From positions 248,001 through 312,000 of the forward strand of contig JAFZZI010000007.1 of the NCBI GenBank assembly GCA_017615835.1: DNA of 64,000 nt, written 5' to 3'. Made by a program: the position numbers and the translations under genes. Source of the DNA: Bacteroidaceae bacterium (GTDB lineage Bacteria > Bacteroidota > Bacteroidia > Bacteroidales > Bacteroidaceae). The number at the start of each line of letters is the position of its first letter. The first letter of the stretch is position 1. The notes under the pieces are model-generated. The model searched no databases. It was not told where the DNA came from and saw nothing but the letters and a program-made list of their open reading frames with translations. Shown here piece after piece: positions 45,899 through 62,028 of the stretch.

Positions 45899-46951
45899 AT
45901 GCTCATTAAAGTTTACGGTGCTGCTGTCCAAGGGATAGAAGCCTACGTAGTGACCATCGAAGTAAACACTTCAAGGGGTATAAAGTTTTTTCTGGTCGGA
46001 TTGCCCGACAATGCTGTACGCGAAAGCCACGAGCGGATAGTTTCGGCTTTCCAGAACAACGGTCTCAAGTTTCCAACAAACCAGATCATCATCAATCTGG
46101 CGCCAGCCGACATACGCAAGGAGGGTGCTTCGTATGATTTACCTCTTGCAGTAGGAATAATGGCGGCCAGTGAAATGCTTCCTCCCGACCGTCTTGAAGA
46201 GACCATGCTGATGGGTGAACTGGGGCTTGATGGCAGGCTACACCCAATTAAAGGAGTACTTCCAATAACCATTAAGGCCCGTGAGGAGGGATTCAAAAGA
46301 TTAATAATACCGCTTCAAAATGCATGTGAAGCCTCGGCAGTTGAAGGAATAGAGATTCTTGGTGCGACCGGACTCGGACAAGTCATAGAATATCTTACAA
46401 AAGGCAAAGGACTTGAACCTTACAAAAGTATGGAAACTTCCTTCAGGCCGGGTACGGAATCCGCCTGTCTGGATTTCTCTGACGTCAAAGGACAGCAGGT
46501 GGGGAAGCGGGCTCTTGAGGTCGCTGCTGCCGGTGGCCATAACATAATCCTTATAGGCAGCCCGGGCTCGGGGAAATCGATGATGGCGCAACGTCTTCCC
46601 TCGATACTTCCGCCTTTGACACTGGAGGAAAGTCTGGAAACAACTAAGATACACTCGGTGGCGGGGTTACTCAGGGCTGGAAGTCCGCTGATAAGTGAAA
46701 GACCTTTCAGGAGTCCACATCACACCATATCGACTATTGCAATGACAGGTGGTGGTGTAAACGCACAACCGGGCGAGATCAGTCTCGCCCATAACGGAGT
46801 CCTTTTTGCCGACGAGTTGCCGGAATTCTCCCGTCAGACGCTCGAATCGCTCAGACAACCGCTTGAGGATCATTGCATAAGTATATCGAGATCTAAATAC
46901 AGTGTCTGCTTCCCGGCCTCATTTATGTTGGTAGCATCAATGAATAGATAG
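45899..46951 (+). pseudogene. yifB: YifB/ComM Mg-chelatase-like ATPase, N-terminal fragment interrupted by element
   Basis: 349 native codons followed by Arg and a TAG supplied by the inserted element. The N-terminal Lon-protease-like domain ([38 protein letters not shown]) and the AAA+ domain are present: Walker A GSPGSGKS (about 220-227), [13 protein letters not shown], and Walker [11 protein letters not shown] (about 300-309). The reading frame stops right after FMLVASMN, the point where intact homologues continue PCPCGYY. The fragment lacks the zinc-finger loop and C-terminal lid and is probably inactive. ComM-type proteins act in branch migration during natural transformation in other bacteria. 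The missing part lies at 61537-62028. Confidence 0.93.
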
Positions 46952-46952
46952 A

Positions 46953-46979
46953 TTAAGGATAAGTATAAGAATAAGGGTG
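46953..46979. repeat. Left terminal inverted repeat (attL side, half attP)
   Basis: 27 bases beginning TTAAGGATAAGTATAAG, matching the complement of 61502-61528 at 25 of 27 positions. On circularisation the two would face each other across an 18-base centre, the layout of a serine-integrase attP. Confidence 0.88.
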
Positions 46980-47001
46980 GAAATCAATCAAAATTTCCAC
47001 C
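46976..47001. repeat. Hairpin just inside the left end
   Basis: GGTGGAAAT (46976-46984) and ATTTCCACC (46993-47001), a 9-base stem with an 8-base loop, overlapping the inner edge of the terminal repeat. A 7-base stem occupies the equivalent place at the right end. Confidence 0.6.
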
Positions 47002-47062
47002 ATAACCCCTAAAGACCGGGTTGTATTTCAATATGTTAATACAGAAACAAACACAACCCTAT

Positions 47063-47221
47063 ATGGATAATACCGATAACCTTGTTAATGAATTAAATAG
47101 CAACTTGAATGAACTATTCCTCTGTGCAAAGGAGAACTCCGATAACGTTCTGGAGGAATACTGTGATATGATGTATTGTTTTCTGAATGACCCTAAAAGA
47201 TTCCAAAAGATATACAACTGA
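47063..47221 (+). CDS. Small hypothetical protein
   Basis: 52 residues from ATG 47063 (MDNTDNLVNELNSNLNELFL); ATGs at 47021 and 47033 are alternatives. Predicted all-helical, acidic, with no recognised family. The open frame is short but its codon use and position in front of the next gene are plausible. Confidence 0.45.
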   Translation: MDNTDNLVNELNSNLNELFLCAKENSDNVLEEYCDMMYCFLNDPKRFQKIYN

Positions 47222-47306
47222 TATCTAAAGATTAACGGTTCATTTGTTAAATATATGTTAAGGAGTGGTTCAAACACTCTCTATGTTTAACTGAAAGAAT
47301 GATAAT

Positions 47307-47615
47307 ATGACGAAGGAAAAACTAAAACTTACCGGCACAGTTAGTAGGTGTCGATGGAATCACAGTGTTTTCGAACTATCATTGCTCGTTGGCGATGTTA
47401 TTAGGAATCAAAATGGCAATCTGTTCAGTAATACGAAGTGGTATTGTCTTAAATCTGACATCAAAACAGTACCGATGGATATCATTAAGACAATCGGAAA
47501 AGGAGACAAAGTGACGGTAGAAGGGATAAAGAATTATCGACTCGTTAAGGATAAGAATGGTTGGACAAGTCTAGATAATTCCATCACAATTACTAAAATA
47601 GAGAAAATCAATTAG
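47307..47615 (+). CDS. Small OB-fold-like protein, possibly single-strand DNA binding
   Basis: 102 residues. The strand pattern LTGTVSRCRW, VFELSLLVGD, TKWYCLKSD, IGKGDKVTVEGIKNYRLVKDKNG and ITITKIEKI is that of an SSB-type OB fold: first strand with Gly, central Trp strand, a GDKVTVEG turn and a final ITKIE strand. No acidic SSB tail is present. Function is inferred from fold pattern only. Confidence 0.6.
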   Translation: MTKEKLKLTGTVSRCRWNHSVFELSLLVGDVIRNQNGNLFSNTKWYCLKSDIKTVPMDIIKTIGKGDKVTVEGIKNYRLVKDKNGWTSLDNSITITKIEKIN

Positions 47616-47671
47616 AAACGTCGATAATAACAGAAGACTTAAAAGAAAAATCTAAATACGAAATAAATGAC

Positions 47672-47679
47672 TATATTTG
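47672..47679 (+). promoter_or_regulatory. -7 box in front of the 228-residue hypothetical gene
   Basis: TATATTTG, an exact TAnnTTTG match 24 bases before ATG 47703. It rules out the in-frame ATG at 47667 as start. The same octamer occurs at 52706 before another element gene. Confidence 0.5.
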
Positions 47680-47702
47680 TTATGAATCAAAAATATCATA
47701 AT

Positions 47703-48389
47703 ATGACTTACTTTTTTTATCCAATGAATAAAAGGGTCTCTGATGATGAATTATTAGAGGCGTTAAATGATATGGTTTTAGTAGATGCTATAGATAAAGA
47801 TGGCATTTATGTGTGGAATGAGAGGAACTATGATGATTGGGAAGATGCATGTGGGGGACCTTGTAGAATTCAGCAGTTTGTTCAGAACGAGTTAGTAAAC
47901 GATGTTTACTATACAGGAGAAGAAGACGAAATGATTCATCTTTACCCTAATAAGAAGGTTTATGCATTAGATCATGCAACGGATGATGAGATTTTGAATG
48001 CAGACTCTTTCTTTCTAGTCCACTCTTACGGAGAAGGAGTATACTATGATGTTCCTAGTGAATTTAATGAACGTGTTTTCGGCGATTTTGTCTCATGTGT
48101 TCGCGACCTTATGGCAGATATATCATCCCATGAATATCCTGAAATACCGACAAGAATGGTCTCTACGCCATATGATAAAGGCATGTATTTCACCTATATC
48201 AAACCAAAGCATTACTACGAGAATCCAGATTTTCCATTTGACGATTTTAAAGGTTACAATATTGCGTTCTGGTTTGAAGATGGAAAGATTATTATGAGAT
48301 GCGATTGCCGTGATGTTCTCAATTTAATGGGAGACAATGCGAGTGAAATTGAGAAATATTCAATCATCCAACAGTATGATGATTTATAA
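47703..48389 (+). CDS. Hypothetical protein, acidic
   Basis: 228 residues from ATG 47703. Strongly acidic, with aromatic-rich segments such as YVWNERNYDDWEDACGG and KGYNIAFWFEDGKIIMRCDC. No signal peptide, membrane segment or known family was recognised. Followed by a strong terminator at 48446. Confidence 0.7.
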   Translation: MTYFFYPMNKRVSDDELLEALNDMVLVDAIDKDGIYVWNERNYDDWEDACGGPCRIQQFVQNELVNDVYYTGEEDEMIHLYPNKKVYALDHATDDEILNADSFFLVHSYGEGVYYDVPSEFNERVFGDFVSCVRDLMADISSHEYPEIPTRMVSTPYDKGMYFTYIKPKHYYENPDFPFDDFKGYNIAFWFEDGKIIMRCDCRDVLNLMGDNASEIEKYSIIQQYDDL

Positions 48390-48445
48390 TCGTATTCTTA
48401 TGATAGATACAGGGAGCAATCCCGAAGTATTCGAATAAGTTTCGT

Positions 48446-48475
48446 GCGACTTTGCTAGCAAGGTCGCTTTTTTTT
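48446..48475 (+). terminator. Intrinsic terminator
   Basis: Nine-pair stem from GCGACTTTG (48446-48454, one G-T pair) and CAAGGTCGC (48459-48467) with loop CTAG, then eight T. Confidence 0.85.
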
Positions 48476-48576
48476 GTGCAAATAGTTCACTCTTTTACTA
48501 AACTTTTCCTTCTGTTTTGATAAGTAGATGTACAAAGCAATACACTTATCATTAACATCTATTAAACCCAACTAAA

Positions 48577-49140
48577 ATGACACACATCAAACTCGTTTAT
48601 CATTTTTCTCATGGATACCAAGATTACTATTATCCTATCAAAGACTATCCTAAACTTCAGCACCTTCTTGGTTCAGTAATAACACAGAGGCTCCAAAATA
48701 GGTATCTTGATGGTTTTCTTATGGATACGAACATAATGAAAGGAATTCATGCATGTATCGCCTCCAACGCTCAGTACATTACGACCAATTGTTGTGAGTT
48801 AGAGAGACCGCATATTAACGACGAATTGGTTAGACGAGATCGAGTCCATCACAAAAAGATTATGAATTACGACCGCGACGTCCTACAAAGTGGACAATAT
48901 TTGATGAAACGGAATTGTTGTTCTGGTTCGGTTATATACGAGTTTGACTCGACCGAACCTTTTGAGAACAAGAAACTACAAATAGTTGATAATCTCACCC
49001 ATAAATACAACCATAAAAAAAGACTTCGTTATCAAACAACGACAGATTACATTATATACGATGGCGTGAAAATATCACCAACAAAAGTAATTACAACCAA
49101 CCGTAATGATCGTGGGACATACTGCATAATCGAGAAATAA
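48577..49140 (+). CDS. Hypothetical protein
   Basis: 187 residues, basic and rich in Tyr, His and Asn, with a Cys-containing centre (ITTNCCELERPH, MKRNCCSGSVIYEFD). It ends with TTTDYIIYDGVKISPTKV and a Lys terminus. No recognised family, signal peptide or membrane helix. It is convergent with the Sel1/Vsr operon. Confidence 0.65.
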   Translation: MTHIKLVYHFSHGYQDYYYPIKDYPKLQHLLGSVITQRLQNRYLDGFLMDTNIMKGIHACIASNAQYITTNCCELERPHINDELVRRDRVHHKKIMNYDRDVLQSGQYLMKRNCCSGSVIYEFDSTEPFENKKLQIVDNLTHKYNHKKRLRYQTTTDYIIYDGVKISPTKVITTNRNDRGTYCIIEK

Positions 49141-49180
49141 ACGACATTAAAGACAAAGGTGAAGACTTATATCTCCACCT

Positions 49181-49741
49181 TTATTTCTCTTTAAAATACC
49201 AGAGTTTAAATAGCAATATGACGAGGATAACAACCACAACTCCTATCAATCCCCACACAATCCAATTGGGTCTTCGTCTTTCCATCCTCCCTTCAAACCA
49301 ATCCAAGAACCCATCCGGATTATCACCCCATTGGAGTTCCATCAGATTCTCAGCATTCCGATAACCAACTTTTGCGGATTTCTCCAACCAATACTTAGCA
49401 GATACCGGGTCTTTCTCCAATCCTTCCTTTCCATTCAAATACAAAGAACCCAATACATACCAACAGAAAGGTTCTCTCTCGTCTGCATTCTCTGCTGCGG
49501 TCTTAATGATATCCAAACCTTTTTTAAGGTCATACCATTCTTTGTCTTCCATCAGATATGCCAGACCCCACATGGTCTTTAATGGACACGGAGAGTTAGG
49601 ATTCGTTGCCAATCCTTCCAACATCTCAAACTCTCCTTTTACTTCCTCGAAGGAATGGGCAGAGGATAACCTCTTATAGATTATCCTCATCAGTTTGCTG
49701 ATATCCTTCGTGAATTGTCTATCGTCGTATGGTCTAGACAT
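49181..49741 (-). CDS. Sel1-like repeat protein with C-terminal membrane anchor
   Basis: 186 residues. Helical pairs of the Sel1/TPR type occupy about 60-135, with the pattern LGSLYLNGKEGLEKDPVSA and KYWLEKSAKVGYRNAENL. After RMERRRPNW a single hydrophobic helix follows (IVWGLIGVVVVILVILLFKLW, seen in part) and KEK at the end, which makes it a tail-anchored inner-membrane protein with its repeats in the cytoplasm. It is the last gene of the methyltransferase-endonuclease-Vsr operon, 3 bases after vsr. Its role in that operon is unknown. Confidence 0.75.
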   Translation of the reverse strand: MSRPYDDRQFTKDISKLMRIIYKRLSSAHSFEEVKGEFEMLEGLATNPNSPCPLKTMWGLAYLMEDKEWYDLKKGLDIIKTAAENADEREPFCWYVLGSLYLNGKEGLEKDPVSAKYWLEKSAKVGYRNAENLMELQWGDNPDGFLDWFEGRMERRRPNWIVWGLIGVVVVILVILLFKLWYFKEK

Positions 49742-49744
49742 AGG

Positions 49745-50281
49745 TCAGAGATGTTTTATCTCATTGAGTAGTGATTCCGTTTCTCGTTGGTGAGACCGTC
49801 TTTCTTCCAACCATTCCTCCCGATTAATTCTCCGTTCCTCTTTATAACGTCTATATGAATCTCCGTTACTAATAATATCCGACTCCACTCTGTTAACGGT
49901 ATCATCAAACCGCTTCTTTTCCAGTTCGCACTCCCATACAATTACAACTGACCATCCTTTCGCTTCTAACTGTCTCCAAACATCTTCATCCCTTTTCTGA
50001 TTCCGTTCTACCTTCTCAATCCAAAAGTCCGTATTGGTTTTCGGAACCACATACTTCTTGCAATCTTTATGACCGTGCCAAAAGCAACCGTGAATGAAAA
50101 CAACTGTACGATATTTCGGCAAAACAATATCAGGCGAACCTGGCAGTCGTTTATCGTTCTTTCTGTATCGAAATCCATTCCTCCACAATTCTTTTCTCAA
50201 CCTTATTTCTGGTTTTGTTGAGGTTGAATGAATATGCGACATACATTCATGCCGCTGTTGCGGGGATAGAGTATCGGACAT
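49745..50281 (-). CDS. vsr: Very short patch repair endonuclease (Vsr)
   Basis: 178 residues. The core RLPGSPDIVLPKYRTVVFIHG then CFWHGH matches Vsr exactly at its catalytic residues, including Asp51, His64 and His69 in the same numbering as the E. coli enzyme. The N-terminus has RHECMSHIHSTSTKPEIRLRK. The last 40 residues are a charged helical tail longer than usual. Vsr nicks next to T in T:G mismatches created by deamination of 5-methylcytosine, countering the mutagenic effect of the methyltransferase encoded two genes upstream in this operon. Confidence 0.95.
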   Translation of the reverse strand: MSDTLSPQQRHECMSHIHSTSTKPEIRLRKELWRNGFRYRKNDKRLPGSPDIVLPKYRTVVFIHGCFWHGHKDCKKYVVPKTNTDFWIEKVERNQKRDEDVWRQLEAKGWSVVIVWECELEKKRFDDTVNRVESDIISNGDSYRRYKEERRINREEWLEERRSHQRETESLLNEIKHL

Positions 50282-50293
50282 TAATTAAACTGT

Positions 50294-51388
50294 TTATGAG
50301 AGACAAACTTTCTCCATATAGCAGTCTAGGAATTCTTGATTAACGCCATGTAGATTACGGTGAGTACAGATATAATACAACTCCTCAACAGAAGAATATG
50401 CGAAATATCTCGCATCCAGCGCTTTGAATTGTGATTTGTTGATTTTCTCAACAACCATATCTCTATCATCGTCTGGCGCTACTATGACATAACGTGTACG
50501 AAAATCAGGCATCATGTCGTACAACCCCTTCATCCGCGTAAGTCCAGAAGTAACCCCTGTTGTGTGTTCGACTTCCATGACGGCTGGCATAAAGCGCCCA
50601 TTTTGAAACCAAATACAGTCAATCAGTTTTGCTTCTGATTCGGCCCTAAAACGAGATACAACATTCTCATCATCGGTTAATGAGGAGATGATATTAGGTT
50701 GACAGACAAGCGGTTTCCCTTTATACTGAATTCCCATATCATTTTGCGCTATCCACGTTCTATAACCCAACTGTAATCCAATTATGTACAAGGCAATTTG
50801 GATTTGTGTATGTCGGCGCACAGCTTCGATATCAAGCGGGCCATTCGTCAGAGATTCGGGAACTATGATATCGTCATAAATGACTTGCTTCGACGGTATT
50901 TCTGAGATGGCCATATTCTGAACTTCTTTCTGTACAAGAACGCCATTGCTATGCGGCGTTTCAGGAGTCCAAATCACATGTTTATGACCAGTTTCTATTG
51001 AAGTCTGGCCACCCTTATCCATAATACGACCGGGATAACAATAATAGAATTCAGGTGTGTGAGCGATTAAGGACTCTAAAACAGACCGCGTATTATATGA
51101 AGCCGCAAATAATCGATCAAGATTAATAGGTTCCATACCCGATAAAGCATTGGCAAAGCGCCAAATCATTTCACTTGACAGGCTAACATTTGATGCTTGT
51201 GAAAAAGATTTTGGTGTTGATGGCTTATTAGAGGTTGGATCCCAACGACGAATAACAATGGGGCCTTCTGGTAGATTAACACTTACAATGCGTATTTTTC
51301 CATGATTATCAGGGTTCACATAATTATAATCCCTGTTTTTTGGAAGAGCATTGATAGCATTGACAATATTATACGCCGTTAATTTCAT
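50294..51388 (-). CDS. Type II restriction endonuclease, PD-(D/E)XK-like
   Basis: 364 residues. Its start overlaps the methyltransferase stop as TAATG. A likely nuclease centre is LIDCIWFQNGRF then MPAVMEVEHTTG: Asp257, Glu272 and Glu274, a D-X14-E-X-E variant of the PD-(D/E)XK site as in some restriction enzymes. The centre is followed by a beta strand with FRTRYVIVAPDDDRD. The N-terminal 200 residues could hold the DNA-recognition domain. No named family was recognised; position between a cytosine methyltransferase and Vsr makes the cognate restriction function very likely. Recognition sequence unknown. Confidence 0.82.
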   Translation of the reverse strand: MKLTAYNIVNAINALPKNRDYNYVNPDNHGKIRIVSVNLPEGPIVIRRWDPTSNKPSTPKSFSQASNVSLSSEMIWRFANALSGMEPINLDRLFAASYNTRSVLESLIAHTPEFYYCYPGRIMDKGGQTSIETGHKHVIWTPETPHSNGVLVQKEVQNMAISEIPSKQVIYDDIIVPESLTNGPLDIEAVRRHTQIQIALYIIGLQLGYRTWIAQNDMGIQYKGKPLVCQPNIISSLTDDENVVSRFRAESEAKLIDCIWFQNGRFMPAVMEVEHTTGVTSGLTRMKGLYDMMPDFRTRYVIVAPDDDRDMVVEKINKSQFKALDARYFAYSSVEELYYICTHRNLHGVNQEFLDCYMEKVCLS

Positions 51389-52494
51389 TATTGAGCAGAA
51401 TTAAAGAAGTCTTGTATCGTTTGTGCAATTCCGCGAGCCAACAAAAACGGAACGCCATTGCCAATAGTTTTAAACTTGTCCGACAAAGACATTTCAGGCG
51501 GTAAAACAAACTCGGCCGGAAGTGACTGCAAAGCCATTGCCTCTGCAACAGACAGTCTTCTTGCCATATACGGATGAAGATGCACTTCGTTATTGCCATA
51601 AGCTACCGTTGGTGAATAACGCCAGCGATGCAACCGTTTGTAGCTTTTCCTCGAATCATCGCCCTCTTGAATGGCAATCATCCGGGCAAGACCTGCGCGC
51701 GGTGTAAAAATATCTTGTGAATTCGGATGATGCATAACATCGTTTTTTTCAAACCAATGTTGAACTGTCAGTTCAAGCGGAATCCCATCTGGTGCAGGTC
51801 TGTTATTAAGGAAAGCGAACGGTTCAGTTGTCGGCCATGAAAGATTCTTTACCTCATCCAGATTGAATAAGATATGGCCGTTCCAATTAAACTCATTTAT
51901 ATTCAATTTTAGCTGTTTGGCAACCTTTTTCTGAATACCGAATAGAAGTATTCTGTCCCTATCTTGCGGGACGCCAAATTCAAGTGCGTTGCAAAGTCTA
52001 TCGGTCAAATAATAGTGCTTTGAAAGGGATGCTTTTAACTCTTCGTAATACGCTCGGTGTTTCGCCGTTCTCCACAACCCTTTTACATTCTCGAACAGAA
52101 AGAAATCCGGTTTCTGAACACAGATTAAATCGATATACGATTGGGAGAGCTTTCCATTATCTCCTTCTCGACCTTTCTGCTTTCCGGCGACGGAAAAATC
52201 AGGACAGGGCGGTCCCCCAATAAAACCGACCAAACTGTCCTCTTGATGGTCTTGTTCAATATAACCGTGTAATTCTTTTGCTCGGTCTGAAATAAACTCA
52301 TTAACATCACGACTATAACCGAATCTTGGTTCCGCGATGCCCATATGAGTCCGTGCGTATTTATAAGCATTCAAAAACGCAGGAGAAAACTCGTTAACAA
52401 AGTCTATTGTAAAACCTGCATTCTCAAATCCGAGATCGAGAAATCCCGAACCAGAAAAAAAGGAAAATATCTTAATTCGTTTTGGCATCATCAA
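51388..52494 (-). CDS. DNA (cytosine-5-)-methyltransferase, type II
   Basis: 368 residues. Motif I FSFFSGSGFLDLGFENAG, motif IV GGPPCPDFS with catalytic Cys97, motif VI FENVKG, motif VIII QDRDRILLFG and motif X GNGVPFLLARGIAQT are in the canonical order, with the target-recognition region at about 200-310. Three consecutive Met codons (52494, 52491, 52488) allow small variation in the start. It makes 5-methylcytosine to protect host DNA from the endonuclease encoded next. First gene of the four-gene operon; its promoter is a full consensus. Confidence 0.96.
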   Translation of the reverse strand: MMMPKRIKIFSFFSGSGFLDLGFENAGFTIDFVNEFSPAFLNAYKYARTHMGIAEPRFGYSRDVNEFISDRAKELHGYIEQDHQEDSLVGFIGGPPCPDFSVAGKQKGREGDNGKLSQSYIDLICVQKPDFFLFENVKGLWRTAKHRAYYEELKASLSKHYYLTDRLCNALEFGVPQDRDRILLFGIQKKVAKQLKLNINEFNWNGHILFNLDEVKNLSWPTTEPFAFLNNRPAPDGIPLELTVQHWFEKNDVMHHPNSQDIFTPRAGLARMIAIQEGDDSRKSYKRLHRWRYSPTVAYGNNEVHLHPYMARRLSVAEAMALQSLPAEFVLPPEMSLSDKFKTIGNGVPFLLARGIAQTIQDFFNSAQ

Positions 52495-52508
52495 TCGCTC
52501 TTAATGTA

Positions 52509-52539
52509 CAAAGGTAGTTTATTTTCGACACCATTCAAA
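52509..52539 (-). promoter_or_regulatory. Promoter of the restriction-modification operon
   Basis: On the minus strand: TTTG (52539-52536), a 19-base spacer, TACCTTTG (52516-52509). Complete match to the host consensus, so the operon should be expressed by the host primary sigma factor. The leader is about 10-15 nt. Confidence 0.78.
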
Positions 52540-52705
52540 GAAGATATCAGACTATCGTTAATTCCAATATGAATCTTCCGCGTTAAACGGTCAAATAATA
52601 CTCAAACAAAATTATTTCATGATAACTGACTAACATATAGACGATTAACAACAAAACACAAAACCAAATACACCCATTTCACCGATTCGTTAAAAAATGA
52701 TATAT

Positions 52706-52713
52706 TATATTTG
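52706..52713 (+). promoter_or_regulatory. -7 box before the 162-residue hypothetical gene
   Basis: TATATTTG, exact TAnnTTTG, 30 bases before ATG 52743. No TTTG at -33. The 52495-52742 gap otherwise holds only the divergent restriction-modification promoter. Confidence 0.45.
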
Positions 52714-52742
52714 GGTTGTTTAACCATCAAACCCTATGACCT

Positions 52743-53231
52743 ATGATTAACAAAACAGACCACATCCGCCGTTACACGTGCGCAGATATGAACATCACAC
52801 AGGTAATCCGCAAAAGTTTGTCGGATAATTTTGAACGAATCCCTTATACCAATGAAGGTGGATATATTGCCACCGATATTGGAGAAAAGGAAGATGACGA
52901 ACACCTGCTTATTATGGTAAGTGGTTTTTTAGATGGTGCCGGTATTATGATGCAGGAAGTGACAGTCGTTTACTTTGACACGATAGAGAGAGCGAACAGA
53001 TTCAGAAGGTCAGAAGAAGGAAGGATATTTGGAGATAGGTTTAGTGATGGAAAAGATTGTTTTGACTATACAACTTTTGCCGGAAATCCCGCCCTTCCAA
53101 ATCTTATTGCAACTATACTTCGAAACCACTTCAACATTAAAGACAATTCATATCTGATTGCACACACCTATTGCAATGTGGACTACTTTAGGAAAGACAC
53201 GGAAAAGAAGAGTTCCATACAGCAGAATTAA
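52743..53231 (+). CDS. Hypothetical protein
   Basis: 162 residues, mixed alpha/beta by pattern (GYIATDIGEKEDDEHLLIMV, VTVVYFDTIERANRFRRSEEG in part). No recognised family, signal peptide or membrane helix. It begins after its own -7 box and ends at a bidirectional terminator. Confidence 0.65.
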   Translation: MINKTDHIRRYTCADMNITQVIRKSLSDNFERIPYTNEGGYIATDIGEKEDDEHLLIMVSGFLDGAGIMMQEVTVVYFDTIERANRFRRSEEGRIFGDRFSDGKDCFDYTTFAGNPALPNLIATILRNHFNIKDNSYLIAHTYCNVDYFRKDTEKKSSIQQN

Positions 53232-53263
53232 AAGACGAGGGTGTTCTCAACCCTCGTCTTTTG
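53231..53263. terminator. Bidirectional intrinsic terminator
   Basis: AAAAGACGAGGGT (53231-53243) and its exact complement ACCCTCGTCTTTT (53251-53263) with a 7-base loop. It serves the plus gene ending at 53231 and the minus gene ending at 53285. Confidence 0.85.
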
Positions 53264-53284
53264 TGTTCAGTTGTTTTAATACGA

Positions 53285-53551
53285 TTAACGGACAAATATG
53301 TACTTTGCGGTTACATCCTCAATCCGGTCAATACTTATCCAAAACTTCCCATCTTCTTCAACGATAAACGAAGAGATTGAATAGAAATTGTCTGGGTCAG
53401 ATATGTCTGTTTTGTTGATTAAGTACACGTCATTCTCAGTATCCACATAAATACCATCCTCCGGATCTATCCAGTTACTATAACGAATATAATCGGTTAA
53501 TAGGTCTGTTATTCTATTACTGAATGAATGGTAATCCTGAATCGTGTCCAT
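53285..53551 (-). CDS. Small hypothetical protein
   Basis: 88 residues from ATG 53551 (MDTIQDYHSFSNRITDLLTD). The open frame extends to 53617, but that part lies inside an inverted repeat. Acidic with a beta-rich second half (YSISSFIVEEDGKFWISIDR). No recognised family. Confidence 0.55.
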   Translation of the reverse strand: MDTIQDYHSFSNRITDLLTDYIRYSNWIDPEDGIYVDTENDVYLINKTDISDPDNFYSISSFIVEEDGKFWISIDRIEDVTAKYIFVR

Positions 53552-53561
53552 ATAAAAGAGA

Positions 53562-53635
53562 AGGATTCTCTCAATGGCGGTAGAACACCGTTGGAGTCTG
53601 TGAATACAGATAAGCAAGAGAATTGAGAGAATCCT
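53562..53635. repeat. 14-bp inverted repeat between two hypothetical genes
   Basis: AGGATTCTCTCAAT (53562-53575) and its exact complement ATTGAGAGAATCCT (53622-53635), 46 bases apart. It lies between the stop of the gene ending at 53644 and the start of the gene at 53551, so it could act as an attenuator or processing hairpin in the minus-strand transcript. Confidence 0.6.
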
Positions 53636-53643: not shown

Positions 53644-53958
53644 TTAGTCGGTTGTCTGAATGTAGTAGTCGAGTTCCTCTCCTTTTAAGTTATCCATACA
53701 CCATTCATCAACCATCCTCCAGAGTTTATCATAGAGGGCGGCAAACTCGTACTTCTCCTCATACCACCTCCATATCTTCCAGTTGAGAACCATTGATAGT
53801 TCCGTAATGTATTTGTAGTTAGTCTTCCACTCGTTGAATGCACGATTGAAGGTATCTAGAATTGCCTCCAGACCCCATACGTCGGCAATAGAGAAGTCCA
53901 TATAAAAAGAAGTGACAGGTTTATACCCTGTCAATTCTTCAATTCTCCAATTCTCCAT
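53644..53958 (-). CDS. Small hypothetical protein, Trp/Tyr rich
   Basis: 104 residues, acidic, with nine tryptophans (IADVWGLEAI, NWKIWRWYEEKYEF, LWRMVDEWCMDN). Predicted helical. Its first 20 bases overlap the end of the upstream 63-residue gene. No recognised family. Confidence 0.6.
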   Translation of the reverse strand: MENWRIEELTGYKPVTSFYMDFSIADVWGLEAILDTFNRAFNEWKTNYKYITELSMVLNWKIWRWYEEKYEFAALYDKLWRMVDEWCMDNLKGEELDYYIQTTD

Positions 53959-54130
53959 CTTCTCCGCTATTAAAAATGTGGTTAAGGGCGGTTTCGCAAC
54001 CCTTCAATAATTCTTCTTTAGTAGGACGATAGTCCAACACATAGTAGAGAAAGAGTAACTGATTAAGAACGTCCTCGATATCGTCGTTAAGACGAGCGAG
54101 GGTCAGATTAGTTGTATCTATTTTAACCAT
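53939..54130 (-). CDS. Small hypothetical protein
   Basis: 63 residues, helical and acidic (LARLNDDIEDVLNQLLFLYY). The start overlaps the end of the DUF4314-like gene, and its end overlaps the next gene by 20 bases. This tight packing, as in phage and plasmid modules, supports it being real. Function unknown. Confidence 0.55.
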   Translation of the reverse strand: MVKIDTTNLTLARLNDDIEDVLNQLLFLYYVLDYRPTKEELLKGCETALNHIFNSGEDGELEN

Positions 54131-54947: not shown

Positions 54948-55095
54948 AATGTATGGATTAATTGTTAAACTGTTTGTTTCTCTTGCACATCTATATAACA
55001 AACCGGGGTCAAAAGTTTAGTGGATTTTGCAACTTTTTTTAAGTTTTTTTCGAGGTTGGATATATTATATCAACAAATACACTCTAACTATACCT

Positions 55096-55791
55096 ATGAG
55101 GGAAACGATATATCAGAAAGTAGATAGATTACAACGTCAAAAGGGAGAATGGGAGACTAAGTGTAAAGAGGCAAATCGCACCATCAGAGAACTGTCAACG
55201 TCATTAAGGAAACAGACGGTTGACCCATCAATCATAGACGGATTCAAAGAGACGATAGAATCCCAGAAGACAACCATCCAAAACCTACAAAGTGAGTTGT
55301 CTGAATTGGAGGAGCAGAACCATAAACTCAATGCAGACATAGAGAGTCTGAGGGAGTTCGTTAAGTATTTGCAGAGGGAGGAAAAAGACCCTTCGGTTTT
55401 GGAGTTGATGAAGGTGGAGGAAGAAGATGGGCAGAATCGGTTGGAATACTTCAATAGTGGTTATTGGGAGGATAAGTGGGGGCAGTCGTTCTTTGATGAC
55501 TTACTCCTTCTTACCATTAATCCGTTCAACGGAGTCAAACTAAACTTTGTATCGCAAGCAGATTTGGTCAAACTCCTTAAAGCAGACTATAATGACCTAT
55601 GGATTGAGAAGCAAAGACAGTTGGAGAGGTATCGTCTCCAATACGATAAGTATCTTATGGATGAACTGACCTTCAAAAAGAGAAAGAACCAGTTGGGGTT
55701 GGATATCTGGAATGAGATATCCAAAGATTGGAGAATCCATATCATATTCTCCGATACAACTGAAAAAAAACTACAAGAACTGCCGTTCTAA
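55096..55791 (+). CDS. Coiled-coil hypothetical protein
   Basis: 231 residues from ATG 55096; the in-frame ATG at 55027 would add an unlikely hydrophobic stretch. Residues 1-100 are a long coiled coil (heptads in TIESQKTTIQNLQSELSELE and NADIESLREFVKYLQREE). A compact C-terminal part contains FFDDLLLLTINPFNGVKLNF and a basic, helical LERYRLQYDKYLMDE. No catalytic motif recognised. It ends at a large inverted repeat. Confidence 0.65.
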   Translation: MRETIYQKVDRLQRQKGEWETKCKEANRTIRELSTSLRKQTVDPSIIDGFKETIESQKTTIQNLQSELSELEEQNHKLNADIESLREFVKYLQREEKDPSVLELMKVEEEDGQNRLEYFNSGYWEDKWGQSFFDDLLLLTINPFNGVKLNFVSQADLVKLLKADYNDLWIEKQRQLERYRLQYDKYLMDELTFKKRKNQLGLDIWNEISKDWRIHIIFSDTTEKKLQELPF

Positions 55792-55800
55792 ACACTTTAG

Positions 55801-55853
55801 ATTATTAATCCTTATAATCGGTTCATTATCACTCGATTATAAGGATTAATAAT
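55801..55853. repeat. 20-bp perfect inverted repeat between the coiled-coil and resolvase genes
   Basis: ATTATTAATCCTTATAATCG at 55801-55820 and its exact complement at 55834-55853, with a 13-base centre. Related copies of GGATTAATAAT occur at 55976-55986 and a degenerate AAATTATTAATTC near 55932. The position next to a serine resolvase suggests either a shared terminator or recombinase binding sites. Confidence 0.8.
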
Positions 55854-56003
55854 TTTGCCAGACCAAACCCGGCAAACTGGTTAGAGTTATATATATAAGA
55901 ACTAGTCCCGACCCCTGGTTTTTGCTCACTCAAATTATTAATTCGAATAAGTCATTCATTCTTAACACGATACAAGGATTAATAATTTCAACCACTCAAA
56001 ACC

Positions 56004-56639
56004 CTATCCAAACAGACTCTTAACCTTCCTCAACGTATTGATACTCGTCCCTGTGATCTTGGACACATTACTCAAAGAGATTCCCTTTCTCAATAAGGAA
56101 ATCTCTTTTTGGTATTGCTCTTTGTATGATTCTTCACTCTTTCGGTAGGTCGCAGGTCTGCCCATCTTAATTCCTTCTCTCCGACACTTCTCAATATACT
56201 GTTTCCGTCCACTCTCCATCCTCTCTTTGATAGTCAGTCTCTCCATTGACGCAATCTCCAAAAGGATTGTACATATAAGACTCGCAATCGGATTGACCTT
56301 ACCATCTTCCGTTAAGGTCTCCAGATTGTAGTTCTTCACATACAGACTGACTCCGTTCTCATTAAGTGTCTGAATGATTTTCAGTGCCTCCAACGTATTC
56401 CTTCCTAACCTACTTATCTCCAAACAGACCACCCTTCTGATAGAATTCCCCTTTATATATTCAATCATCGACTGAATTTCCTCTCTGTCCTCGTTCTTCT
56501 TTGCTCCACTCACTTTGTTTGCAAAGGTCTCTGCGACCTCCCATCCAACCTTTGAGCAATACTGTGTGAGTTCTACTATCTGTCTTTGATAGTCTTGTTT
56601 GTCCGTGCTGACTCGGACTAAGAGTGCAACTTTTTCCAT
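56004..56639 (-). CDS. Serine recombinase, resolvase/invertase type
   Basis: 211 residues. The catalytic N-terminal domain has VALLVRVSTDKQ with Ser11, RRVVCLEISRLGRNTLEAL and ASMERLTIKERMESG leading into the E-helix. The C-terminal part GIKMGRPATYR followed by LLRKGISLSNVSKITGTSIN is a resolvase helix-turn-helix. Size and layout fit resolvases/invertases that work on short inverted or direct sites, unlike the larger integrase at the right end. The cluster of inverted repeats starts about 150 bases beyond its stop. Confidence 0.92.
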   Translation of the reverse strand: MEKVALLVRVSTDKQDYQRQIVELTQYCSKVGWEVAETFANKVSGAKKNEDREEIQSMIEYIKGNSIRRVVCLEISRLGRNTLEALKIIQTLNENGVSLYVKNYNLETLTEDGKVNPIASLICTILLEIASMERLTIKERMESGRKQYIEKCRREGIKMGRPATYRKSEESYKEQYQKEISLLRKGISLSNVSKITGTSINTLRKVKSLFG

Positions 56640-56775
56640 ATCGTTTGTTTGATACCAGTAATGGATATAATTACCAAACGAAGACAGAATCTTTATTGCA
56701 GTCGACCTATTATTTAAGTAAACAATAGGCGCAGATTACATATCTTATTGCAGATAACAAATAAATAGAAATAGA

Positions 56776-57108
56776 ATGGCAGATAACATTATTGAGAAGG
56801 ATAAAACCTTCTACTATCACAATCTCGAAACGAGATACAACCCTCAACTCATTCATTCTGCGTATATGGTAGATATTGGAGAAATGGACGAGAGAGAATA
56901 TGAATCGAGATATCCTAACAAGTATTACGGAAAGGTCATTAAGTATTTTGAAGACGATATGTATTCACTTTGTAATTACAGTCGTTCTGACTACGAATTA
57001 GTCAAAGGGATTGACCTTACAAAAGACGGAATCTACATCGAAGACTTCGAATACAAACTCTTTGCAGTTGTGATTGACGGACAGATTGTGTTACAGATAG
57101 AGAAATAA
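56776..57108 (+). CDS. Small acidic hypothetical protein
   Basis: 110 residues, rich in Tyr, Asp and Glu (IGEMDEREYESRYPNKYYGK, YFEDDMYSLCNYSRSDYELV). Beta-rich end (FAVVIDGQIVLQIEK). No recognised family. First of three consecutive acidic genes that diverge from the resolvase. Confidence 0.6.
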   Translation: MADNIIEKDKTFYYHNLETRYNPQLIHSAYMVDIGEMDEREYESRYPNKYYGKVIKYFEDDMYSLCNYSRSDYELVKGIDLTKDGIYIEDFEYKLFAVVIDGQIVLQIEK

Positions 57109-57118
57109 ATGAAAAAAA

Positions 57119-57829
57119 ATGATAACTTTGAAAGAACATTTAATGAAGAATACTATGGGTGTTATATCTATCGGTTTGGAGTCTGCGTATTACGAGACGG
57201 ACTTTGAGGAAATCTCTTATGATAACCTCTTAAAACTTAAAAAACTATATGATGAGGAAGGAGAAGACGCGGTTCTAAACTATGTATACAATGCCCTTAG
57301 ATGGCAAGACGACCCGGACGGACTGTTTGACTATCACGAACCGACGCCATACCTATCCGTTCGTGAATATGGGATGGACGGATTAAATAGTATCAGAGTC
57401 TACAAGGACGATGAGTTGATTGAAGTAATCCACGAAGAAGTAGAAGATGTTAAAATAGTGAAAAGAAACGAAGATGACGAGTTTACAAAGTTCTGCAAAG
57501 GGAATGGTCCTCGTTTCATCGTGGGTTATCGCACTTACTGTGAAGGTGCCGAATCTATCGCCGAGATAGACTCGCCAACGTTTGACATTAAGAAACTTAA
57601 ACTGTTATCCTCTAACGGATTTAATGAGGAAAGGTATCGTGGAGGAGATATTAGTATAAACCCGACCGGTTTCATTTATGATGGTAAAGAATACTATGGG
57701 GATGAAGATGGAGAATTTGAACCTCTAGAAGTATTTGGAGTTATCGTTGATAAGAATGGTAATGTTGACACTTCGTTCTTAGAAGATGAAGACTTCGAGG
57801 GATTCTTAACGATGGCAACAAAACGATAA
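57119..57829 (+). CDS. Acidic hypothetical protein
   Basis: 236 residues from ATG 57119, with alternatives a few codons in. Strongly acidic throughout (LYDEEGEDAVLNYVYNALRW, VIHEEVEDVKIVKRNEDDEF, YYGDEDGEFEPLEVFG). No signal peptide, membrane segment or known family. It starts 10 bases after the previous gene. Confidence 0.65.
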   Translation: MITLKEHLMKNTMGVISIGLESAYYETDFEEISYDNLLKLKKLYDEEGEDAVLNYVYNALRWQDDPDGLFDYHEPTPYLSVREYGMDGLNSIRVYKDDELIEVIHEEVEDVKIVKRNEDDEFTKFCKGNGPRFIVGYRTYCEGAESIAEIDSPTFDIKKLKLLSSNGFNEERYRGGDISINPTGFIYDGKEYYGDEDGEFEPLEVFGVIVDKNGNVDTSFLEDEDFEGFLTMATKR

Positions 57830-57860
57830 ATCCAATGTAATTAAATAAAGAAAAGTCAAT

Positions 57861-58070
57861 ATGTTTTACAAATTCATTTCAGACAAGAGCACCAGATGGT
57901 CCTGTTGCGTTGAGGCAGATAGTTTAGAAGAAGCAATTGAGAAATCAAAAGATGCAGAATGGGAAGACGAACCAGACACTTTCCAAGTTTATCACAGAAT
58001 AGAGATTGCAGATAGTGAAGATGCCTATAATGATGGGGATTACGAAGAAGATGAAGAGACCGAGTTCTAA
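57861..58070 (+). CDS. Small highly acidic protein
   Basis: 69 residues of which 24 are Asp or Glu and only six Lys or Arg. The pattern FYKFISDKSTRWSCCVEADS and LEEAIEKSKDAEW is that of a small beta-alpha unit followed by an acidic tail DGDYEEDEETEF. No family recognised. Strong negative charge would allow DNA mimicry or binding to a basic partner, but this is speculation. Ends before a terminator. Confidence 0.6.
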   Translation: MFYKFISDKSTRWSCCVEADSLEEAIEKSKDAEWEDEPDTFQVYHRIEIADSEDAYNDGDYEEDEETEF

Positions 58071-58110
58071 CAATCTCGTCACCCACCATATTAACTAAAC
58101 ATAAAACATT

Positions 58111-58142
58111 AAAGGAATATGATTTGGCCGTCATATTCCTTT
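58111..58142 (+). terminator. Intrinsic terminator
   Basis: AAAGGAATATGA (58111-58122), an 8-base loop, TCATATTCCTTT (58131-58142). It ends the three-gene acidic cluster. Confidence 0.75.
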
Positions 58143-58223
58143 TGTATTGAATGTTAAATTAATATGAAATGCTTTTTAATATGAAATCAGCTGTAGTCAA
58201 ACCATTAATCAAAAAAAAATCAT

Positions 58224-58472
58224 TAAATTTGACCTTTGAGGCAGATAGTCTGTCTCAGACATAGACATATTTGCGTTTGCAATTTGCTCTGGCCGAGTAG
58301 AAACGTAGGAAATTTCTCTTAGCAGGTTCAGCAGCAAGTCGTAAACGTCCGCAATAGATACCCTCGTGGTATTTAGCGGGCGTGACTTGTACCTGCTTTG
58401 GTTTCCTACGACCACTACCGGACGAGCCTCGCCCGCGCTTTTTGTATAACACTAAAACTAATGATATTTTTT
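58224..58472 (+). promoter_or_regulatory. Promoter and long structured leader of the FISUMP lipoprotein gene
   Basis: TAAATTTG at 58224-58231 is a perfect TAnnTTTG -7 box. The leader to ATG 58473 is then about 235 nt, far longer than others here, and clearly richer in GC than the rest of the element. It contains two interleaved complementary pairs: CGTAGGAAA (58304-58312) with TTTCCTACG (58402-58410), and GCGGGCG (58376-58382) with CGCCCGC (58430-58436), the latter followed by GCTTTTTG. They cannot both form as simple nested stems, so a switch or pseudoknot is possible. Two minus-strand open frames cross it but look like chance. Confidence 0.5.
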
Positions 58473-59846
58473 ATGAAACGCTTACTTTACTTTTCCGTGA
58501 TGTCAATCTTGACTTATTCCTTAGTCAGCTGTGAAGGAAAGATTGACAATCCCACACCGAATGAAAACGAAGAGGTGTCCGTATATTTTATCTACAACTT
58601 GCCTACAACTAACGGCAACTCTATGACCAAAGCAACGAACGCAGAGGTATTTAGCGAATTCTATGAGAAAATTAACTCTGCAGAACTAGTAGCAACCAAC
58701 TACTCCTTGGTTCTTACAGAAACAACTACTAAAGCGAAATATGAACTCAACGGTCTTTGGAAGAGTCACGATAGGCTTACCTTGAGGACAGGAACGTATC
58801 ATGTTGTGGGTTCTTCTACCGCTTCCGGGAAGAACATACAGGATAAATGCTCTTTCTTGTTTGATGAGACGATTGAGATATCCACTTCATCAAACGCCAT
58901 CACGCTGAAAGCGAATTACGATTGCTATCTTCTGATTTTCGGAGCCGATGACATAGCTTCGCTCTACAATTACAATGGTGAGGAAACGAAAGATTTATTT
59001 GACTTCAAATCATACAAATATGCTTTCGTCAATGATAAACTCTATGAGGAAGGAAAACAAGCAACTGCATACATCGGAGGAAAATATACAAATGGCTCCG
59101 AGTTTAGATGCTACACCGAGAATCTTAACTGTGAAAAGGGGAAATACTATGTCTACAGTAGTGTGACGGGTGGTTTTACGGTCCCTCAGATGGATGAAGG
59201 CGGTGCGGAAGGTCAGGCTATTATAATTCCCTCGGCCGTTGATCTGGGTCTTTCTGTAAAGTGGGCTCCAATCAATATCGGGGCCAATAAAATCGAGGAT
59301 TATGGTAATTACTATGCTTGGGGAGAAACCGCACCGAAGGAAGATTATTCTTTCAGCACATACAAATGGGTGGCTAATGGAGATGGCTATAAGTTAACTA
59401 AGTATTGCAAATGGAGTCAATACTGGGCCGGCGAGGGAGAAATGGACGGAAAAGATACTCTAGACCCCGAAGATGATGCAGCATATGTCAATTGGGGCCC
59501 TCATTGGCGCATGCCTACGGTGGCCGAGTTCCAAGAGCTGTTGGACAAGTGCACCTGGGAGTGGACTTATATCAATGATGTATCGGGATGGCTAGCCATC
59601 AGCACGATTAATTCTAGGAGTATTTTCTTCCCTGCCGCGTGTCATTATTATGGTACGACTATTTGGCCCGGTTCCAGTGTCTTCCCTCCGAATACGTGGT
59701 ATTGGACGAATTACACAGATCATTTTTATTCCGCATGTGATTTTGATTTTTATAATGATTCTGAGTATGCTACGCACGGAACAATGCTTATGAGAACGCA
59801 AGACCGTTGCAAGGGCGCGCCTGTCCGGGCCGTATATCAAGAGTAA
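58473..59846 (+). CDS. Lipoprotein with C-terminal FISUMP (Fibrobacter major paralogous) domain
   Basis: 457 residues from ATG 58473; upstream in-frame ATGs lie in the leader. Signal peptide with lipobox LVSC (Cys20), so it is lipidated and probably surface exposed. Residues 25-230 resemble the beta-sandwich found in Bacteroidales fimbrillin-like lipoproteins. Residues about 240-457 are a FISUMP-type domain: AVDLGLSVKWAPINIG, YYAWGETAPKEDYSFSTYKW, WRMPTVAEFQELLDKCTW, FFPAAC, YWTNYT and the closing APVRAVYQE. These domains are common on Bacteroidota surface proteins without known biochemical role. Cargo of the element. Confidence 0.85.
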   Translation: MKRLLYFSVMSILTYSLVSCEGKIDNPTPNENEEVSVYFIYNLPTTNGNSMTKATNAEVFSEFYEKINSAELVATNYSLVLTETTTKAKYELNGLWKSHDRLTLRTGTYHVVGSSTASGKNIQDKCSFLFDETIEISTSSNAITLKANYDCYLLIFGADDIASLYNYNGEETKDLFDFKSYKYAFVNDKLYEEGKQATAYIGGKYTNGSEFRCYTENLNCEKGKYYVYSSVTGGFTVPQMDEGGAEGQAIIIPSAVDLGLSVKWAPINIGANKIEDYGNYYAWGETAPKEDYSFSTYKWVANGDGYKLTKYCKWSQYWAGEGEMDGKDTLDPEDDAAYVNWGPHWRMPTVAEFQELLDKCTWEWTYINDVSGWLAISTINSRSIFFPAACHYYGTTIWPGSSVFPPNTWYWTNYTDHFYSACDFDFYNDSEYATHGTMLMRTQDRCKGAPVRAVYQE

Positions 59847-59882
59847 GTTTGTTCCAAAAACTATCCGTTCATAATAAACACA

Positions 59883-59917
59883 AAAGGAGGCTGACTCAAT
59901 GGTGAGTTGGCCTCTTT
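59883..59917 (+). terminator. Hairpin between the lipoprotein gene and the integrase gene
   Basis: A long imperfect stem: AAAG and AGGC pair with GCCT and CTTT, then ACTCA with TGAGT around a 4-base loop, with a bulge and a small internal loop. Only a short T tail. Possible terminator in either direction. Confidence 0.5.
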
Positions 59918-59940
59918 GATGAAATGGTTTCAACCGGTTA

Positions 59941-61434
59941 TCATTCTCCTCGTTTTTTTACTTCCAGTAATTTCCACTTAATGTCTTTTGTGTAGATTCC
60001 ATATACATACACTTTACCATCAACCTTTGTGTAGATTTCGGCAAGTGTATACCTTAGTTGTGGATTGGGTTTTGATAATTCAACCTTCTCTATCATTTTG
60101 TGTACAATATCATACTTCTCCTTAAATGACAATGAATCCAAATCTATTTGGGAGTGTTCTGTCAAAGATTTCATGTTTGAAATGTTCTCGGAGATTTCTA
60201 TAAGTATCTTATCTACCTTATTCTGCCAATCCTTCTTTTCGGATTTTAGGGATGATAACAGACTGTTTGCTTTCTCCACACTGATATTACCGACAATAAT
60301 TCTTTCCTCAACCTTATCTATTCTCTGCTGTGCGGTTATAACCTTACTGTTTGCTACAGTATATTTCTTCGTTAGTATTTTCCCCTTTTCCTTAATCTGA
60401 GTCTGGAGAACTTTTTTATTCATCACGTATTTTACATACAGTTCTTTCGCAAACTCCCATACTACCGGGTCGATTGCGTGCTGAAGAATAGATATAGTAC
60501 GTCCAAAATGATGAGAGGACACGTAAATGGAACGGTCATTATTGCATTCCGCAAGGTTAGTCTTTCCTTTACAGGATAGCATGTGTCCGGTATGTTTATT
60601 AATCAATAGTTGTTTGCAAATCATTTCAGAAACATTACTGATACGATATTCGCAGACATGTTCTTTTCTTACCACCTGACACCTATCATATAACTCCTTT
60701 GAGATAATCGGAGGATAGTGAGTTTCTCCGTAATAAAGTTTCATCTGAATCATTTCTGCGATTCGGGTTTCAAGACTATATAGTTTCATCTCCGGAAACG
60801 CACCTCTTTCCTTTAACTCTAGTGCCAGTGTATGATAAGAATAGTTACCAGTTGAATAGAGTTCAAATAGAGTACGGACTATATTTGCATCATCCTCCTT
60901 TATTTCCCAATACTTGTCCTTCTTTACCCGATATCCAAAGGTTACGGTTCCTCCTATATACCTTCCTAATTGCTGGGCGTGTCTTCTTCCTCGTATTGAC
61001 CTTTCTTTTTTGATTTCCATTTCAGTTTCTGCAATCGAAGTAAATATGGCCATCATCAACGACGCAGTCGGACTAATTTTACCATTCTCATCCAAGAGTT
61101 TCATGTATGGTGTAAGAACGATCCATTGAATCCCATGATTAACGAGGAAATCTCGGATATCATATATAACATCTGCCCTGCGACCTATTCGTGATAGTTC
61201 CCAACATATTACACAATCTATATATGGGTTCTTTTCAATTTCTGATTTGAGCGCAGATATACCTTCTCTTTCATTTGTGGATAGAGAAATACCACTCTCC
61301 TTGTATTCGATAACTATTTGATGGTCGTCAGAATACCCCATCTTTCTTGCTTCCTCTCTAATCGCAGCAGTCTGTTGGGATAGGTCTTGTTGAATAGTGG
61401 ATACTCTGCAAAAACAAACACAATACTTGCTCAT
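59941..61434 (-). CDS. Large serine recombinase (integrase)
   Basis: 497 residues from ATG 61434 (MSKYCVCFCRVSTIQQDLSQ); an in-frame ATG at 61470 is less likely. Catalytic domain: CRVSTIQQ with Ser12, CVICWELSRIGRRADVIYDI, ISPTASLMMAIFTSIAETE and KKERSIRGRRHAQQLGRYIGG. A recombinase domain follows (VTFGYRVKKD, NIVRTLFELYSTGNYSYHTLA), then a degenerate zinc-ribbon region and a long coiled coil (about 340-440). This is the architecture of phage-type serine integrases, here at the element edge with its start 95 bases inside the right terminal repeat. It should catalyse insertion at the yifB site and, with a directionality factor, excision; no such factor was recognised. Confidence 0.94.
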   Translation of the reverse strand: MSKYCVCFCRVSTIQQDLSQQTAAIREEARKMGYSDDHQIVIEYKESGISLSTNEREGISALKSEIEKNPYIDCVICWELSRIGRRADVIYDIRDFLVNHGIQWIVLTPYMKLLDENGKISPTASLMMAIFTSIAETEMEIKKERSIRGRRHAQQLGRYIGGTVTFGYRVKKDKYWEIKEDDANIVRTLFELYSTGNYSYHTLALELKERGAFPEMKLYSLETRIAEMIQMKLYYGETHYPPIISKELYDRCQVVRKEHVCEYRISNVSEMICKQLLINKHTGHMLSCKGKTNLAECNNDRSIYVSSHHFGRTISILQHAIDPVVWEFAKELYVKYVMNKKVLQTQIKEKGKILTKKYTVANSKVITAQQRIDKVEERIIVGNISVEKANSLLSSLKSEKKDWQNKVDKILIEISENISNMKSLTEHSQIDLDSLSFKEKYDIVHKMIEKVELSKPNPQLRYTLAEIYTKVDGKVYVYGIYTKDIKWKLLEVKKRGE

Positions 61435-61483
61435 AATCACTGTATTTACTATATCAAAATACCAAAACAACGACCATTATTTA

Positions 61484-61504
61484 GTGATTTAAGCAAAAAA
61501 TCAC
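61484..61504. repeat. Hairpin just inside the right end
   Basis: GTGATTT (61484-61490) and AAATCAC (61498-61504), a 7-base stem with a 7-base loop, mirroring the hairpin at 46976-47001. Confidence 0.5.
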
Positions 61505-61528
61505 CTTTATTCTTATACCTATCCTTAA
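61502..61528. repeat. Right terminal inverted repeat (attR side, half attP)
   Basis: 27 bases starting CACCTTTATTCTTATACC, complementary to 46953-46979 with two mismatches. It lies between the integrase start and the resumed yifB sequence at 61537. Confidence 0.88.
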
Positions 61529-61536
61529 CGTATGTT

Positions 61537-62028
61537 AATCCCTGCCCTTGCGGTTACTATTCTGATCCGGCAAGGCAATGCACCTGCACACCCGACATGA
61601 TTACCCGGTATATGAGCCGTATAAGTGGTCCTCTCATGGATCGTATAGACATTCAGGTGGAGGTGGCTCCATTGCAGTTTTGCGAACTGTCAGGTGGTGT
61701 CAGGGGTGAGTCGAGCTCTTCTATAAGGGAGAGGGTCATTGCTGCCCGAAAAATTCAGACAAAAAGGTTTTCAGAATGTCATGGAGTGTACTGCAACTCC
61801 CAGATGACCGTTGCCATGGCGAGTGTATACGCCTTTCCTGATGCACGAGGCATGCAGTTGCTGAAAAACGCCATGACGCACCTCAACCTGTCTGCCCGTG
61901 CCTATAACAGAATACTAAAGGTTGCCCGCACCATCGCCGACCTGGAAGGCTCTGTCACCGTGCAGTCCCATCACATAGCAGAAGCCATCGGTTACCGGAA
62001 ACTCGACCGTGCCGACTGGGGGCGTTGA
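61537..62028 (+). pseudogene. yifB: YifB/ComM, C-terminal fragment
   Basis: Begins with the Asn codon AAT shared with the left junction, then PCPCGYYSDPARQCTC (the YifB cysteine cluster), RYMSRISGPLMDRIDIQVEV with the arginine finger region, and the C-terminal helical lid ending HHIAEAIGYRKLDRADWGR. 162 residues after the junction. Together with codons 1-349 of the left part a 511-residue protein results, the normal family length. The frame is open further into the element, but that part is not homologous. Without its own promoter and N-terminus it is presumably silent. Confidence 0.93.

Follow-up and report, generated by a model that had tools for sequence, protein, structure and literature searches.

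The 64,000-nucleotide stretch examined here (the window: positions 248,001 to 312,000 of contig JAFZZI010000007.1, from a Bacteroidaceae bacterium) very probably contains a 14,594-bp integrative element that was inserted in the yifB gene, also called comM, by its own large serine recombinase (LSR). The features that bear on this insertion, in window coordinates, are the following.

45899..46945, plus strand: yifB 5' part, ending with SMN (codons 1-349; TIGR00368 positions 1-346, E 1.5e-126)
46943..46945, no strand: attL core AAT, common to both junctions, with the inferred crossover dinucleotide AA at 46943-46944, the centre of the arm palindrome
46953..46979, plus strand: left predicted attP arm (inverted repeat; 0/200 shuffles equally good)
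59941..61470, minus strand: LSR (integrase), probable start 61434 (MSKY...), with PF00239 and PF07508 (PHROG 95 integrase, 162 bits; NF047344 CcrA, 50.6 bits, cut-off 700)
61502..61528, minus strand: right predicted attP arm (inverted repeat; 0/200 shuffles equally good)
61537..61539, no strand: attR core AAT, common to both junctions
61537..62028, plus strand: yifB 3' part, NPCPCGYY... to the stop (TIGR00368 positions 345-499, E 1.5e-47)

As the preliminary description had it, yifB is cut after SMN, within the Met-Asn-Pro-Cys stretch, by an insert of 14.6 kb, and its halves together give 511 residues. The upstream open reading frame (ORF; 45899-46951) encodes YifB through ...VASMN and ends at a stop codon just within the insert, and the two parts match successive portions of the same protein profile. 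The trinucleotide AAT is shared by the two junctions, and joining the host flanks in silico at this core yields 511 codons reading ...ASMNPCPCGYY.... Aligned with 60 intact homologues (top identity 66.9%), the rejoined protein is free of gaps over the 20 residues on either side of the junction in every case, and all 60 contain [SA]MNPCPCG; the alignment script accepted only frames with MNPCPCG, a filter that removed none of the 60 loci. From core to core the element measures 14,594 bp, and its G+C content of 0.387 is lower than that of the flanks (0.458 and 0.508). The genome assembly, at 81.8% completeness, showed no other intact yifB. The frame-exact split is the expected product of conservative site-specific recombination and is not remarkable by itself.

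The attribution to a serine integrase is upheld by the domains of the enzyme, by its invariant residues and by its position beside the right junction. The protein is long (509 aa) and combines a resolvase domain (PF00239, 75.5 bits) with a Recombinase domain (PF07508, 30 bits), and its residues R10 V11 S12 T13 and S81 R82 R85 are invariant in 5/5 aligned LSRs; we take the RVST and SR..R residues to be catalytic (active-site serine and arginines). Its frame lies 67 bp from attR when counted from the first start codon and 103 bp from the probable start. Both element ends bear TTAAGGATANGTATAAGAATAANGGTG in inverted orientation, and we predict that the 27-bp inverted repeat there forms the attP arms. 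A search pattern derived from this pair of arms matches at those two places only (0/100 shuffles). In the predicted circular form the arms would be 18 bp apart with their centre, by a hand count, on the AA of AAT, which points to AA as the exchanged dinucleotide. The circular element would have borne an attP palindrome centred on AA, which the integrase would have recombined with an attB site at the SMN/PCPCG codons of yifB, giving attL (46943) and attR (61537) and leaving the gene in two halves. The integrase may well be active and YifB lost, and excision could be possible with exact restoration of yifB. For a serine integrase that has no close known relatives, the insertion defines a predicted attP/attB pair precisely.

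Several observations weigh against this interpretation. Pfam recognised no zinc-ribbon domain in the LSR. A search of 392 further genomes of the order at E 1e-30 detected no close relative of the integrase, so a second insertion by the same enzyme is unavailable to check the core; its best match in the family reaches only 35% over 251 residues, and six short peptide patterns retrieved no relative from viral contigs. Nor do terminal arms serve as a general mark of related yifB elements: in the five tested, a set that leaves out one from genome G998 (G and L numbers are our labels for genomes and loci), the inverted repeats of the window and G003 were better than all 200 shuffles, and equally good shuffles numbered 7 of 200 for G050, 23 for G008 and 115 for G686. 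An exact scan of viral contigs for the attP arm gave no match. The scan of genome contigs for the LSR returned one distant Lachnospiraceae locus, where no yifB was found, and one Wolbachia phage record matches the enzyme at 22.4%.

The preliminary description proposed checking whether relatives without the element also have a split yifB, and this was done for the genus: the gene is full-length in 32 of 37 genomes, the window's own counted, split or broken in three (the window, G050 and G510) and without a match in two (G119 and G520). Among 121 genomes of the family, yifB is full-length or nearly so in 103 (counted from a listing), split on one contig in four (the window, G003, G008 and G050), broken at contig ends in five (G017, G034, G039, G065 and G067), present as a 3' piece alone in two (G019 and G083) and unmatched in seven; many of the family and genus assemblies are incomplete. 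An LSR insertion in yifB is the arrangement seen in the window, where both gene halves flank the element, and relatives show the empty site.

Three loci of other genomes (L071, L076 and L070, from G044, G010 and G084) have a full-length yifB followed downstream by at least one extra copy of its 3' end, with RhuM-, Bro- or DUF3990-like genes (named by eye) or a 17-kb stretch in between. These are perhaps insertions that restore the gene by carrying a copy of its 3' end; no LSR was recognised by eye near the extra copies, and no dedicated search for one was made.

The remaining genes of the element with an annotation are listed here.

47307..47615, plus strand: small protein with a weak match to single-stranded DNA-binding protein (SSB; TIGR00621, 17.5 bits, cut-off 53.95)
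47667..49140 (47667-48389 and 48577-49140), plus strand: two proteins without known family, unmatched in Pfam, PADLOC, PHROGs and NCBIfam
49181..49741, minus strand: Sel1-repeat-like protein (PF08238, 27.2 bits, cut-off 30.7)
49745..50281, minus strand: Vsr mismatch endonuclease (PF03852, TIGR00632)
50294..51388, minus strand: type II restriction enzyme (PADLOC PDLC03534, 382.5 bits, 2-362 of 364 aa; no Pfam match)
51388..52494, minus strand: C5-cytosine DNA methyltransferase (PF00145, 155 bits; PDLC03355, 533 bits)
53285..53617, minus strand: XisI-like protein, marginal (PF08869, 26.8 bits, cut-off 25)
56004..56639, minus strand: small serine recombinase of resolvase/invertase type (PF00239, 104.6 bits)
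57119..57829, plus strand: protein with a weak NsnC match (PDLC03916, 19.4 bits)
58398..59846, plus strand: possible lipoprotein (by eye) with a weak Lcl_C match (PF07603, 16.9 bits, cut-off 34.9)

The C5 methyltransferase, the restriction enzyme and Vsr make up a predicted type II restriction-modification set, which would most likely act in phage defence and make the element hard to lose. The Pfam scan covered 18 element proteins (ORFs 47021-47221 and 53939-54130 were left out), and among them there was no match to a relaxase or conjugation gene and none above cut-off to a phage structural or packaging gene, so that the element qualifies neither as integrative conjugative or mobilizable nor as a prophage or satellite. 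PHROGs, scanned with 10 of the 18, returned integrase/invertase families and, for 55027-55791, weak matches that include a tape measure protein (E 0.005) over a coiled-coil-like stretch. Because no relaxase was found, the route of transfer can only be guessed at: the element might move between cells in trans, by phage or by transformation.

Excision had also been suggested to act as a switch for YifB. The model for such a regulatory element would be the fdxN element of heterocyst-forming cyanobacteria, which undergoes programmed excision and has an XisF-type LSR together with XisH and XisI. The clean junctions, which would restore the yifB frame, and the XisI-like protein are in keeping with an element that is removed to restore YifB, but XisI barely exceeds its cut-off and lacks a recognisable partner, XisH being unmatched by Pfam among the 18 proteins. 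The window LSR does not match XisF, and the small serine recombinase reaches 45.6 bits against a cut-off of 375. Moreover, the intact yifB of most genus relatives is what would be expected of an ordinary mobile element. The element is not of the fdxN type as far as these genes go, and with the marginal XisI match as the sole hint the proposed switch is unsupported and, in our view, very unlikely.

Still less probable, to the point of being nearly negligible, is targeting of comM by a Tn7-like TnsF or by a tyrosine recombinase, the route taken by elements of Acinetobacter and Zoogloea. The same gene is indeed a published target of such systems (PMC10293859 and PMC11472951), but Pfam found no Tns protein, TnsF or tyrosine-recombinase domain among the 18 element proteins, and palindromic arms with a 3-nt common core suit a serine integrase.

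That comM/yifB is a known insertion target, as the preliminary description stated, agrees with the literature (PMC10083194, PMC10293859, PMC11472951). Durrant et al. 2022 (PMC10083194) found a magnesium-chelatase gene to be targeted by 12.4% of predicted site-specific LSRs, and from the gene name we judge this target to be yifB/comM; those LSRs belong to the same enzyme class and disrupt their target gene, as in the window, whereas the main text has no word beginning with 'Bacteroid-'. In Wolbachia, sr1WO prophages split the magnesium chelatase gene, and like the window element they have an LSR, parts of the gene on both flanks and predicted att sites, but each is a full phage (PMC9203015). 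Tn6022-like and Tsy elements use comM itself, at a conserved stretch by the Walker B motif, although with TnsF and tyrosine-recombinase chemistry and at another site in the gene than in the window (PMC10293859). The comM gene of Acinetobacter is often interrupted, partly by islands with defence systems, and its loss lowers transformation; in A. baumannii some of the islands encode CBASS or Zorya, which recalls the window, but they are of other element types (PMC11472951). LSR insertion in yifB is already a known type of event, to which the window element adds another case; a report of an LSR-split yifB in Bacteroidota was not found in searches of one open-access library. The window integrase has some likeness to the Ccr recombinases of staphylococcal cassette chromosome (SCC) elements, CcrA being its best NCBIfam match, far under the cut-off. 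SCC elements with Ccr recombinases use another target than yifB.

A Bacteroidales element in comM had been presented as a parallel case, but it is not the first of its kind: yifB is split by further LSR elements in the family and the class to which the window belongs. We found eleven there, one only indirectly, in surveys that are not a census and whose queries lean to yifB-targeting integrases. The window LSR, run against 300 other family genomes, had six matches of LSR size (open frame of at least 450 aa), three of them inside yifB (G542, G008 and G686) and three outside (G653 and two in G577), in genomes with an intact yifB; a truncated LSR in G100 adjoins a DUF554-like gene (named by eye). 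This search misses members, since it shows no match in G050, although G050 has an LSR; the G003 and G050 elements were found starting from yifB, not from the LSR. A five-row LSR profile gave seven matches of LSR size in 394 other class genomes, and five directly adjoin a yifB part (G1032, G814, G905, G833 and G998), a share biased by the profile itself, in which yifB-targeting LSRs make up four of the five rows. For the other two, a wider fetch placed the yifB 3' part of G1011 11 kb from the LSR (there is none in its 4.5-kb locus, and the other end was not seen), and no yifB appeared in the fetched surroundings of the G224 LSR. In viral contigs, an LSR lies beside a placed yifB junction at 9 of 13 loci with a yifB match, and the Acetoanaerobium phage record PP197248 adds one more junction (32 phage records have a yifB match, of which 5 were fetched).

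Some of these loci have unusual arrangements. A yifB piece of L133 (6076-6189, codons 350-387) sits between two distantly related serine recombinases that face each other; it looks as though two elements used adjacent sites in the same gene. At L130 (1187-5228), three serine-recombinase frames stand in tandem next to the 3' part of yifB, at the Walker B site. At L136 (4016-4519), which is PP197248 and is listed as a complete phage genome, yifB codons 188-355 adjoin the integrase and end in the MNPCPC stretch. L122 and L126 have an essentially whole yifB.

The 22 LSR/yifB junctions that could be placed all lie in the AAA+ part, between codons 218 and 386, and form five clusters on a 513-residue reference: 218-220 (3 junctions), 278-281 (8), 301-308 (6), 344-355 (4) and 386 (1). 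Several junctions are one-sided, and the codons, entered by hand, are accurate to a few residues. The reference motifs GPPGSGKS, PFRAPHH, FLDELPEF, SMNPCPCG and SGPLLDRID start at 223, 271, 305, 349 and 380, and we take GPPGSGKS and FLDELPEF to be Walker A and Walker B. The tally counts the D-site LSRs of L124 and L133 (99.8% identical) as one and excludes L134, whose junction is unclear, L128 and L135, where no adjacent LSR was found, L137-L139, whose fragment lies close to the end of the record, and the contig-end breaks of G017, G034, G039, G065, G067 and G510. The target was rightly described as a highly conserved DNA site, the window crossover being in the 98th percentile of 40-nt yifB windows for conservation (60 genes). 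For 13 breakpoints the percentile averages 0.80 (5e-5 in a comparison with random picks, for points that are not independent) and the median of all 22 is 0.72, with G542 only at 0.37; other conserved stretches, at codons 7, 40, 68, 472 and 502, hold no junction in the sample. The choice of breakpoints is not fully explained by site conservation. In the integrase tree, the A-, B- and C-site enzymes form no single groups, and the clade of the window integrase (support 97/99, with a long-branch warning) comprises A-site G008 and L123, H-site G542 (codon 280) and G100, and uses three different yifB sites; its loyalty to the gene is weakened by the G100 member beside the DUF554-like gene and by the long-branch warning.

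This multi-site pattern is the interesting part of the case. Tentatively, and with somewhat less than even confidence, we suggest that the AAA+ part of yifB is a row of at least five serine-integrase berths (just before Walker A, PHHTIS/DVAL, Walker B, SMNPCPCG and SGPLLD), most of them used by integrases that are not closely related, that the window clade moved among three of them, and that in the class the occupants are often small restriction-modification or defence islands. The users of these berths come from the window's class, an Acetoanaerobium phage and viral contigs. If a clade does stay in one gene while changing its site, this would point beyond DNA conservation to selection on the loss of YifB. 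Such loss would plausibly remove a transformation helicase, and the window genome encodes a ComEC-type (PF03772) protein. Elements could gain by inactivating the helicase, with integrases landing there again and again in consequence, as has been argued for comM in Acinetobacter (PMC11472951), and the spread of different LSR lineages over five places in a single gene, the use of three sites by one clade and the ComEC-type protein are all consistent with it. Frequent use of a very conserved, dispensable gene would, however, be expected even if its loss brought no benefit; furthermore, one clade member lies by the DUF554-like gene in a tree with a long-branch warning, and the LSR searches began from yifB-targeting integrases. 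On balance we regard selection on YifB loss as a doubtful, if serious, explanation. With the split yifB genes, two reasons why this gene might be favoured can be tested against each other: its conservation together with its dispensability, or protection of the element through its loss.

Cargo offers a further lead, in small numbers: each of the six yifB elements of which both ends were seen has a DNA methyltransferase, namely those of the window, G003 and G686 (the latter two each with a type II methyltransferase and restriction enzyme), G050 (an N6-type methyltransferase with an HSDR-like N terminus), G008 (a C5 methyltransferase) and G998 (type IIG, plus Gabija GajA and GajB matches). The G542 element, seen in part, carries a methyltransferase of type II. 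In a crude, uncalibrated motif scan, no methyltransferase motif turned up in what was fetched of G833 and G1011, nor at three LSR loci that lack yifB (G653, G224 and one of the two in G577, the second being left out). Methyltransferases are common on mobile elements.

Elsewhere in the window, a 66-bp tandem repeat at 42778-42967 (2.8 copies, 95% match) lies upstream of a gene judged typA-like by eye; the repeat probably inflates the ORF start at 42714.

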